Source: Betaproteobacteria bacterium (GTDB lineage Bacteria > Pseudomonadota > Gammaproteobacteria > Burkholderiales > SG8-41). Taken from it: DNA of 64,000 bases. The translations under genes and the position numbers were made by a program. Positions within the stretch are counted from its first letter, which is position 1, and every line of letters begins with the position of its first letter. The stretch spans positions 42,019 through 106,018 of the forward strand of contig CANKUB010000003.1 of the NCBI GenBank assembly GCA_947486575.1, in the 5' to 3' direction. Below, one piece after another: positions 40,644 to 64,000 of this stretch. Under the pieces are notes generated by a model, which ran no database searches, was not told the origin of the DNA, and was given only the letters and a program-made list of their open reading frames with translations.

Positions 40644-41807
40644 ATGTACACAGGATTACTTGATCTGCCGTGGTGGGGTTACATACTAGCCACGCTGGGT
40701 TTGACCCACATCACCATCGCTGCGGTGACAATTTATCTGCATCGCCATTCGGCGCATCGAGCGTTGGATTTGCACCCCATTGTCAGCCACTTTTTCCGCT
40801 TCTGGCTGTGGTCTACTACGGGCATGACTACCAAAGCATGGACGGCCATTCATCGTAAACATCATGCTAAATGCGAAACTGTTGAAGATCCTCACAGCCC
40901 GCAGATATTCGGCATCAATAAAGTGCTGATGACGGGAGCGGAGCTATATCGCTCTGAGGGCGCCAACAAGGAGACGCTGGAGCACTATGGCCATGGCACT
41001 CCGGACGATTGGCTGGAAAGAAATGTTTACGGCGTGCATGACCGCATAGGGATCGGCTCAATGCTGGTGCTGGACGTGATTCTGTTTGGCCCGATCGGCA
41101 TAACCATCTGGGCCGTGCAAATGATGTGGATACCGTTTTTGGCTGCGGGCGTGATCAACGGCATTGGCCACTGGTGGGGCTATCGCAATTTTCAATCTGA
41201 GGATGCCAGCACCAATGTCTTTCCGTGGGGCATTTTGATCGGCGGTGAAGAGCTGCACAATAACCATCACGCTTATGCCACGTCGGCGAAGTTATCGAAC
41301 CGCTGGTATGAATTCGATATCGGCTGGATGTATATACGCATACTCGAAATAATGGGCTTGGCCACAGTGAAAAAAGTTGCACCCGTGGTGAAGCTTAATG
41401 CGGGCAAGGCGCAATGTGATTTTGATACGCTTCAAGCGGTAATCACACACCGCTACGATGTGGTGACGCGTTATGCGCGCTCGCTGCGCGACACCTGCAC
41501 GGCTGAGATGCAGGCATTGAAAGCACGCGCAGTCAGTGTAGACGGCGCACGGCTAAAGCGCTGGCTGAACATTGATGCCGCCGCGCTGCCCGAAAAAGAA
41601 CTCGCCGAACGCGCGCAGGTTATCAGCCAGAGCACGGTGCTTAACACCGTGTATACCATGCGCGACGATCTCGCCAGCGTGTGGCAGCGCTCCACCGCCA
41701 GCAAAGAGCAATTGGTCAGCAAGCTTGAAGACTGGTGTCATCGCGCTGATACCAGTGGTATCGTACCGTTGCAGGAGTTCTCGAAGCGCTTACGCTGCTA
41801 CGCCTGA
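40644..41807 (+). CDS. Fatty acid desaturase (delta-9-like)
   Basis: YLHRHSAHRALDLHP, AIHRKHHAKCE, GGEELHNNHHAYATSAKLS histidine boxes. Confidence 0.92.
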   Translation: MYTGLLDLPWWGYILATLGLTHITIAAVTIYLHRHSAHRALDLHPIVSHFFRFWLWSTTGMTTKAWTAIHRKHHAKCETVEDPHSPQIFGINKVLMTGAELYRSEGANKETLEHYGHGTPDDWLERNVYGVHDRIGIGSMLVLDVILFGPIGITIWAVQMMWIPFLAAGVINGIGHWWGYRNFQSEDASTNVFPWGILIGGEELHNNHHAYATSAKLSNRWYEFDIGWMYIRILEIMGLATVKKVAPVVKLNAGKAQCDFDTLQAVITHRYDVVTRYARSLRDTCTAEMQALKARAVSVDGARLKRWLNIDAAALPEKELAERAQVISQSTVLNTVYTMRDDLASVWQRSTASKEQLVSKLEDWCHRADTSGIVPLQEFSKRLRCYA

Positions 41808-41962: not shown

Positions 41963-42118
41963 CTACTTGATCTTCGCTTCCTTGTAGGACACGTGCTTGC
42001 GGGCAACGGGATCAAATTTCTTGATTTCCATCTTTTCCGGCTGAGTGCGCTTGTTTTTGGTGGTGGTATAGAAATGACCGGTGCCGGCAGTTGATTCGAG
42101 TTTAATTTTTTCACGCAT
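41963..42118 (-). CDS. rpmG: 50S ribosomal protein L33
   Basis: [51 protein letters not shown] read directly from the reverse strand. Confidence 0.95.
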
Positions 42119-61445: not shown

Positions 61446-62846
61446 ATGACCATCGCCCGTCGCTACGATCCCCACACTTTCAAAGCGCTAACCTTTTACG
61501 ATGCCACGGCGGGTTTCAAATCCGGCAGCGACACACCGCGCGCCTATCTCGAACGCTGTCTCGACACCATCGCCGTACGCGAACCGGTGGTGAAAGCCTT
61601 CGTCGTGTTGAACACAAGCAACGCGCGCGCCGCAGCGGATGCCAGCAGCGCGCGCTGGAAAGCGGGCAAGCCATTGTCGGCCATCGACGGCATGCCCATC
61701 GCCATCAAGGATTTGCTCGAAACCAAAGACATGCCCACCGAGATGGGCTGCGAGGCGTATCGCGGCAATAACACGCTGCGCGACAACGCCGCCGTGTGGG
61801 CACTGCGTGAAGCCGGTGCGGTCATCCTCGGCAAGACAGTCACGGCAGAGCTCGGCGGCTCGCACCCCGGCCCCACCACCAATCCATTTGATCCCGCCTG
61901 CACGCCGGGCGGATCGTCGTCCGGCTCGGCCGCCGCTATTGCGGCGCACATGGCGCCTGCGGCTTTGGGCACGCAAGTCGGCGGGTCCGTTATCCGTCCG
62001 GCGGCCTATTGCGGCAACATTGCGCTCAAGCCGACGCAAGGCGGCATCAACCGGGGCGAGCGCCAAACCACCAGCATGAGCACCACCGGCGTTCACGCGG
62101 GCTGCATTGAAGACATGTGGCAGGTGGCGATCGAAATCGCACGCCGCGCGGGCGGCGATCCGGGCAAGCTGGGGCTGTTCGGCCCTTCGACACCACCGGA
62201 AGCGGTAAAACCACAAAGGCTGATCGTGATCGAATCCGCTGGCTGGGCAGTAGCGGATGCTGCCACCCGCAAGGCGTTCGAGAAATTGCTCGAGAACCTC
62301 GCTAAAAAAGGCGTTGCGTTGATCCGGCGCAATGACCATGCGTGGATCGAAGCACTGGAGCAATCCATTATTAAAGCTGCTGACATCGCCAACAACATCA
62401 CCGCCTGGGAAAATCGCTGGTATCAGGCAGCGCTGATAGAACGCTATCCGCAAGGTGTGAGCGAGCGCATCAAGTCCACCGTGAAAAAAGCGCTATCGAT
62501 GTCACCCGATGACTACCGCGCGCTGCTGCTGCAACGTGCCACCGCACAACTATGCCACGAGACGCTCGCCCCATTGGCCGATGCCATCATCATGTTGAGT
62601 TGCCCGGGCCCCGCACCGCTGTGGCCCGGCGATGTGCCCGGTCAGCCGCTGGCTCCACGCCCCACCGGTGATTCGGTATTCAACACGCCCAGTTCAATGC
62701 TGCACGCGCCGTGCGTGACCATGCCATTACTCGCTGTCGATGGCATGCCAGTGGGTGTGCAGCTCATGGGCCAGCAACATGAAGACGCGCGCATGACAGC
62801 ACTGGCGCGGTGGATGCTGCACTCGGTCGCGCCGGTTGTTGGTTGA
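61446..62846 (+). CDS. Amidase signature family protein
   Basis: GMPIAIKDLLETKDMPTEMG, GGSSSGSAAAIAAHMAPAALGTQVGGSVIRPAAYCG. Confidence 0.93.
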   Translation: MTIARRYDPHTFKALTFYDATAGFKSGSDTPRAYLERCLDTIAVREPVVKAFVVLNTSNARAAADASSARWKAGKPLSAIDGMPIAIKDLLETKDMPTEMGCEAYRGNNTLRDNAAVWALREAGAVILGKTVTAELGGSHPGPTTNPFDPACTPGGSSSGSAAAIAAHMAPAALGTQVGGSVIRPAAYCGNIALKPTQGGINRGERQTTSMSTTGVHAGCIEDMWQVAIEIARRAGGDPGKLGLFGPSTPPEAVKPQRLIVIESAGWAVADAATRKAFEKLLENLAKKGVALIRRNDHAWIEALEQSIIKAADIANNITAWENRWYQAALIERYPQGVSERIKSTVKKALSMSPDDYRALLLQRATAQLCHETLAPLADAIIMLSCPGPAPLWPGDVPGQPLAPRPTGDSVFNTPSSMLHAPCVTMPLLAVDGMPVGVQLMGQQHEDARMTALARWMLHSVAPVVG

Positions 62847-63829
62847 TGTGCGTCCTCAAGTTCAAGTGCGCCATGCTGGGCATGGCCGTATCGATATCGA
62901 TCTGGCCGGGCAACCCCGCTTTTGCCCAAACTTACCCGCAACGCCCAGTGCGATTCATCGTGCCCGTCTCCGCAGGCGGTGCCACAGACATTCTGACGCG
63001 CACGCTCGCACAGCGGCTAACCGCCACATGGGGTCAGCAGGTTCTCGTTGATAACCGGCCAGGCGGCGGCAGCAATGTCGGCTTCGAAGCCGCCGCGCAG
63101 GCGCCCGCCGATGGTCATACGCTGCTGATGGCGCAGCCCGCATTCACCGTCAATGTCAGTCTTTACCGTAAGCTCGCCTACGATCCCTTAAAAGATTTTT
63201 CCACGGTAACGCTGACAGCGTCCGGCGCCAACGTGCTGGTCATACACCCCTCGGTACCCGTGACCACGCTCAAAGAATTTATTGCGCTGGCCAAATCCAA
63301 ACCGGGGCAGCTTAACTATGCCTCATCAGGCAATGGTTCATCCGGACATTTGTCGGGACAGTTGTTCAAAACCATTGCAGGCGTTGATATCACGCACATA
63401 CCTTACAAGGGTGCGAGCACCTCGATTACCGATCTGATCGGCGGGCATGTCGACATGGCGATTGTGAGCCTGTCTTCGGTGACGGCACACCTGCAGTCCC
63501 GACGGCTGCGCGCGCTGGTCATCACCAGCGCACGACGTTCAGCATTGATGCCGGATCTGCCGACCTTTGCGGAAGCCGGCCTCAAAGGCATCGAAATTTC
63601 GGGATGGTATGGCGTGGTGGTGCCCGCGGGCACCAGCAAGGACATCATCGGCCGCCTGCACAGCGACATCACGCGTGTGCTGGCGCAGCCGGATGTCGTG
63701 CGGACGCTGGCCGCCGCAGGACTTGAAACCATGCCGCCCAACAGCCCTGAAGAATTCACCGCGCATCTGCGCACAGAAATCGCCAAATGGGCCAAGGTCG
63801 TCAAAGCCTCTGGTGCCCGCGCAGACTAA
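62846..63829 (+). CDS. Bug/TctC-family solute-binding protein
   Basis: YPQRPVRFIVPVSAGGATDILTR, VDNRPGGGSNVGFE; TGATG overlap with the amidase stop. Confidence 0.92.
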   Translation: MCVLKFKCAMLGMAVSISIWPGNPAFAQTYPQRPVRFIVPVSAGGATDILTRTLAQRLTATWGQQVLVDNRPGGGSNVGFEAAAQAPADGHTLLMAQPAFTVNVSLYRKLAYDPLKDFSTVTLTASGANVLVIHPSVPVTTLKEFIALAKSKPGQLNYASSGNGSSGHLSGQLFKTIAGVDITHIPYKGASTSITDLIGGHVDMAIVSLSSVTAHLQSRRLRALVITSARRSALMPDLPTFAEAGLKGIEISGWYGVVVPAGTSKDIIGRLHSDITRVLAQPDVVRTLAAAGLETMPPNSPEEFTAHLRTEIAKWAKVVKASGARAD

Positions 63830-63834
63830 CGTAT

Positions 63835-63851
63835 AAATAACTCAATAAAAA
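63835..63851 (+). repeat. Truncated AT-rich dispersed element abutting the IS end
   Basis: aaataactcaataaaaa then ggggtcttcgcg. Confidence 0.55.
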
Positions 63852-64000
63852 GGGGTCTTCGCGTACGAGTGTGGGTGAATTTGAGGCATTTTAGAGCACT
63901 GGCAACATGCACGTGAGTATTTTCAGTCGCAGATATTCCTCATCGCGCAGCCCGTATGCACGACGTTGAATGACGCGAATTTTGTTGTTCAATCCCTCAA
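63852..64000 (-). mobile_element. End of an ISL3-family-like insertion sequence (continues beyond the window)
   Basis: ggggtcttcgcgtacgagtgtgggtg IR-like terminus followed by the transposase 3' end. Confidence 0.65.
63891..64000 (-). CDS. C-terminus of an ISL3-like transposase (partial)
   Basis: Reverse-strand frame EGLNNKIRVIQRRAYGLRDEEYLRLKILTCMLPVL*. Confidence 0.75.
   Translation of the reverse strand, partial: EGLNNKIRVIQRRAYGLRDEEYLRLKILTCMLPVL

Follow-up and report, generated by a model that had tools for sequence, protein, structure and literature searches.

Insertion of an ISL3-family element into an AT-rich spacer element and a putative programmed frameshift in the transposase of its subgroup

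An AT-rich 8-bp target duplication has been reported for an ISL3-like transposon (PMC5559704). Frameshifting in the production of transposases has been described for other insertion sequences: A_AAA_AAA ranks with the most frequent shift motifs of IS1/IS3 elements (PMC4066793), and the frameshifting families listed in a 2016 review are IS1, IS3, IS5 and IS630 (PMC5009743). Among the open-access papers searched (ISfinder lay outside the search), no relevant one ties ISL3 to frameshifting. Here we describe an IS end at the edge of a stretch of 64,000 nucleotides (the window), which covers positions 42019 to 106018 of contig C3 of genome G000. The contig is 106018 bases long, so window and contig end together, 148 bp inside an ISL3-family IS. 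The missing side of this insertion was sought on other contigs and in related genomes, and the transposase was compared across its relatives.

The IS end and its missing half

The earlier note had described an AT-rich string running straight into an IS whose reverse strand encodes a transposase C-terminus, and this arrangement was seen at 63835-64000. The string AAATAACTCAATAAAAA (63835-63851) directly abuts GGGGTCTTCGCGTACGAGTGTGGGTG in the window sequence as read, and the reverse-strand product of 63891-63998 ends in ...EGLNNKIRVIQRRAYGLRDEEYLRLKILTCMLPVL*. This product matched Pfam DDE_Tnp_ISL3 with 29.7 bits (cut-off 23) over the last 27 profile positions (214-240 of 240) and was identical to the C-terminus of a relative, L048. 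The family and terminal sequence given in the note stood, and the start was moved to 63853 because GGGTC opens each of the nine IS ends in this genome, the first of the four Gs at the junction (63852) being part of the target. The features at this end of the window are collected in Table 1.

Table 1. Features at the right-hand end of the window
Feature	Coordinates	Strand	Evidence or remark
Amidase gene, 466 aa	61446..62846	+	Pfam Amidase, 205 bits
TctC/Bug-type solute-binding receptor gene, last before the insertion	62846..63829 (probable start)	+	Pfam TctC, 232 bits
Left half of split AT-rich element, TAAATAACTCAATAAAAAG	63834..63852	+	Rejoining with C4; matrix score 40.6
Target-site duplication ATAAAAAG, 8 bp, one copy	63845..63852	+	8/8 bases as in flank of IS left end on C4
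Right end of ISL3-family IS	63853..64000	-	Cut by contig end; identical 145-148 bp ends on five other contigs
Right terminal inverted repeat GGGTCTTCGCGTACGAGTGTGGG	63853..63875	+	19/23 bases identical to left repeat GGGTCATCGCGTCTTAGTGTGGG
Transposase C-terminal 35 residues, end of DDE domain	63891..63998	-	Pfam DDE_Tnp_ISL3, E = 7e-07

On these sequence features the IS is a member of the ISL3 family. Its terminal repeats, GGGTCTTCGCG... and GGGTCATCGCG..., agree at 19 of 23 positions and have the GG(C/G)TCTTC-like form of ISL3 ends. Of the three expected parts of the transposase, PF01610, a zinc ribbon and an HTH domain, only the end of PF01610 was present in the window's own copy and all three were present in a complete relative, which matched Zn_ribbon_ISL3, HTH_Tnp_ISL3 and DDE_Tnp_ISL3 and reached 302 bits with NCBIfam NF033550 (cut-off 180). 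The 8-bp, usually AT-rich duplication of the family was found as two exact pairs in the own genome and at 13 places in relatives.

The genome assembly is fragmented (282 contigs), and contigs C191, C135, C41, C102 and C215 each stop 145-148 bp into an identical IS end. C3 thus appears to stop through the usual short-read assembly break at a repeated element, and the insertion, being such a repeat, explains why the window ends where it does. The middle of the IS (about 1.1 kb) is on no contig of this genome, and no single contig spans the insertion. Complete relatives, 1364-1392 bp in full length, were located by searching related genomes with the 148-bp IS end; they include a complete copy of 1374 bp flanked on both sides by GTAGTTTT (L046, on G018:C56) and the L048 copy of 1374 bp, which reaches the start of its contig (G004:C10). 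When the L048 copy was used to search the own genome, three contigs, C4, C2 and C233, were found to terminate in a left IS end, all carrying the left repeat. For four copies the assembly lacks the left end, and for the copy on C2 it lacks the right end. Two candidates were rejected: C29:6591-6613, which differs from the IS end at 3 bases, is part of a long coding gene and has no IS in its surroundings, and the DDE_Tnp_ISL3 match at C3:83457 (window about 41439) belongs to a desaturase-type gene with an ISL3-like tail. The fatty-acid desaturase-type protein encoded there (window about 40644-41807; L027:2663-3826) matches the ISL3 transposase domain in its C-terminal part, and the NCBIfam model DesA_ISL3_tail covers this shared tail.

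The IS end on C4 proved to be the partner of that on C3. Its flank, CTTTTTAT, is the exact reverse complement of ATAAAAAG, and joining C3 and C4 over the duplication gives TAAATAACTCA-ATAAAAAG-AAATAGTTACAAT-ATG. The rejoined site, TAAATAACTCAATAAAAAGAAATAGTTACAAT, matches the consensus of the AT-rich element (see below) and scores 40.6 against the element matrix, for which only 1.5% of random sites score >15. A second exact 8-bp pair, AAAATAAT, was formed by C191 and C233; the rejoined sequence AAATTAAATCAAT-AAAATAAT-TAGTTAAG scores 36.5, its left half being itself one of the 18 rows in the matrix. These were the only 8/8 matches among the 18 end pairings tested, the other 16 differing at 1 to 6 of 8 bases. 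The element-splitting copy on C191/C233 (L010, L057) apparently sits where two genes face each other with their 3' ends.

The earlier note had proposed that the IS was inserted inside the core of one AT-rich element and that a repeat of about 8 bp, followed by the missing half of the element, would be found past the far IS end. The check it suggested was run on other contigs, and IS end, duplication and missing half were all found on C4, where the rejoined sequence restores a single element. The predicted repeat is an exact 8-bp duplication and AT-rich as expected, its letters being corrected from AATAAAAA to ATAAAAAG, and the missing half reads AAATAGTTACAAT, starting with AAATAGTTAC rather than CAATANGTTAC. 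The result closes the prior prediction nearly to the letter and accounts for the contig end.

Gene order points to the same pairing. The first gene past the junction on C4 encodes a Lysine_decarbox/LOG-family protein, and C3 and C4 are very probably chromosomal neighbors, since the amidase and LOG-family genes adjoin, in the same orientation, in four genomes of the same genus (G002, G006, G011 and G013). The tctC gene, which among these genomes lies between them only in G000, is absent from that place in those four congeners and would therefore have been gained here or lost there. Its ATG overlaps the amidase stop codon (TGATG), and we place its start at 62846, the open reading frame being listed from 62810. 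In G002 the LOG-family start codon is immediately preceded by an AT-rich element (ATTAAAAACAATAACTTACA), and AT-rich strings like it lie upstream of the LOG-family gene in G003, G004, G005, G010 and G012.

Taken together, an ISL3-family IS of about 1.38 kb has almost certainly transposed into the AT-rich spacer between tctC and the LOG-family (Lysine_decarbox) gene. Bordered by the 8-bp duplication ATAAAAAG, it divides a lineage-specific element of about 32 bp into halves that are now on C3 and C4. Since the IS end lies 21 bp before the ATG of the LOG-family gene, the insertion may also cut this gene off from upstream transcription. Two other origins of the junction were weighed. The identical ends of the IS copies would in principle permit homologous recombination, so that C3 and C4 could be the ends of two copies brought to an 8-bp match by recombination or by chance; the exact match, the restored element and the gene order in four congeners all agree against this, and we regard it as highly improbable. 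An assembly chimera, which might be suspected because the contig ends within the IS, is just as hard to credit, as six different flanks adjoin the same IS end, the break lies precisely at the IS terminus in every case, and two end pairs carry exact duplications. We therefore retain transposition into the spacer. This IS is present in the genome in seven or more copies, each at a different AT-rich 8-bp site. As far as they are assembled, the six right ends do not differ in sequence, nor do the three left ends, an indication that the IS expanded recently. The insertion itself, a recent one of an ISL3 element into an AT-rich spacer element, is ordinary.

The AT-rich element and the choice of target

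The motif cut by the IS is repeated far beyond chance. Within the window, the 17-mer AAATAACTCAATAAAAA has 6 matches at ≤3 mismatches versus 0.02 expected. A genome-wide count of the core TCAATAAAAACAATA gave 149 copies at ≤1 mismatch and 411 at ≤2 mismatches, numbers that greatly exceed those of the reversed control (0 and 29, respectively). Thirty exact copies gave the consensus AAAwwaTCAATAAAAACAATArsTTAYrat, with no similarity beyond about 32 bp. In the window the element lies at 2114, 6974, 13799, 19760, 24834, 25811, 40521, 45656, 54355, 61413 and 63834. Within the family, genera g1, g6, g7 and g8 carry it often (5 to 165 copies at ≤1 mismatch), and genera g2, g3, g4, g5 and g9, like the remaining order, have almost none; among congeners the copy number varies widely, from 5 to 149. 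Copies are mostly located in spacers, and the right-hand gene points toward the element in 20 of 30 cases by our home-made gene calls, so that a gene 3' end often adjoins it. At L106, L080 and L099 the element runs into the starts of genes that apparently encode signal peptides, and the motif would therefore be translated there.

The target 8-mers of the seven insertions in this genome are 87.5% A+T, compared with 42% for the window. The 13 other places with perfect 8-bp duplications in relatives, where the IS ends are GGGTCTTC and GGCTCTTC, average 80% A+T. Of the seven own-genome insertions, two (C3/C4 and C191/C233) clearly lie in an element and one more (C2, score 19.5) weakly so, which could be taken to mean that the IS recognizes the element specifically, in the way that site-directed transposons recognize their attachment sites. 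We consider this very unlikely, and in its strict form it is already refuted. Four of the seven insertions have no element on the visible side, at least two copies apparently lie inside genes (C102 and C135), and the cut falls at a different position of the element in each of the two clear insertions. Relatives in other phyla likewise use AT-rich 8-mers. Moreover, of the window positions with an 8-mer of ≥7 A/T, 26.5% are element-like (score >15), so two or three of seven insertions would be expected in elements with no special targeting. We conclude that the IS prefers AT-rich 8-mers without recognizing the element. The site on C3 would then have been chosen as an AT-rich 8-mer, such 8-mers probably being concentrated in the elements and other spacers of this 58% G+C genome.

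The transposase reading frame in the ISL3 subgroup

Among 84,980 species genomes scanned, 216 places encode relatives of the transposase; the best 80 of the 216 have 68-100% identity and come from many phyla. Three of these 80 are metagenome-assembled genomes labeled Bordetella parapertussis, a species label that is doubtful. The relatives encode the N-terminal segment (e.g., MAQSTRRQRRLWDAYTFPGFRPLHTLRGIFGEPKARVITLVRRSKK) and the part from the zinc ribbon onward (TACGACG...) in different frames, the latter being -1 to the former, and the two meet at NNA_AAA_AAA_C. Of the relatives, which span several phyla, 72 could be assigned. The -1 relation was found in 62 of these (with an A run of exactly seven in 52) and a +1 relation in 9 (several with six A's or decayed). 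A single continuous frame, which is usual for ISL3 and not strictly defining, occurred in only 1 of the 72. These relatives are at L046:920-2293, L048:1-1374, L049 and loci L109-L187.

In an alignment of 61 elements, the variable third codon position switches phase at the A run, with a mean entropy of 1.59 upstream at the ORF1 third-position phase and 1.45 downstream at the ORF2 third-position phase. Because third-position variability changes phase there, selection for protein coding seems to act on both frames, with the frame switch at the A run. The AAA AAA at the joint is kept, and elsewhere AAA makes up only 26% of lysine codons. The joined protein aligns N-terminally with the single-frame transposase of ISKpn25. 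A Shine-Dalgarno-like motif upstream of the A run was absent in 58 of the 61 elements, and stable structure downstream of the A run showed no excess (mean fold z, 0.05). The left ends in the own genome have the same ORF1 start (ATGACAAAATCAACGAGAAGACAACGG) and break off before the A run; by analogy with the relatives, the window's own copy would also be frameshifted.

From these comparisons, a widespread ISL3 subgroup probably makes its transposase by a programmed -1 frameshift, either on the ribosome or through slippage in transcription, with a conserved A7 run as the site where the N-terminal segment passes into the zinc-ribbon/DDE part. In the papers searched such recoding is undescribed for ISL3, and at least one database record would carry a false N-terminus. 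That record, L188 (CP114560.1, 296-1444), is a plasmid ISL3 transposase annotated from a wrong-frame start (MLWGSEGPDHPTSTTGKK...), and the annotation leaves out the true N-terminus, which is encoded before the A7 run. If true, frameshifting in this subgroup would change the annotation of its transposase genes and add a family to the recoded ISs. The putatively frameshifted subgroup and the lineage-restricted element matter more than the insertion itself, and the two element copies split by the IS offer natural test cases for the role of this high-copy element.

Comparison with described elements

The IS resembles the ISL3 family in its transposase domains, its ends (GGGTCTTC.../GGCTCTTC...), its AT-rich 8-bp duplication and its length of about 1.38 kb. 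With the -1 frameshifting of IS1 and IS3 the subgroup shares the A_AAA_AAA motif and a fusion protein that is the transposase; it differs from them in family and in that neither an upstream Shine-Dalgarno motif nor an excess of downstream structure was found. Homology to the ISAon1 model NF049917 ('ISAon1_downstr') is weak, the score of 48 bits being far below the cut-off of 250, and the name of this model hints at a known split transposase in a neighboring group. The transposases of the named plasmid ISL3 elements ISKpn25, ISCfr12 and ISPpu12 are homologous over most of their length, but with only 25-30% amino acid identity, which places them in another subgroup. ISKpn25 is annotated with one continuous frame, whereas in the subgroup described here the frame changes from 0 to -1 at an A run between the N-terminus and the rest of the protein.
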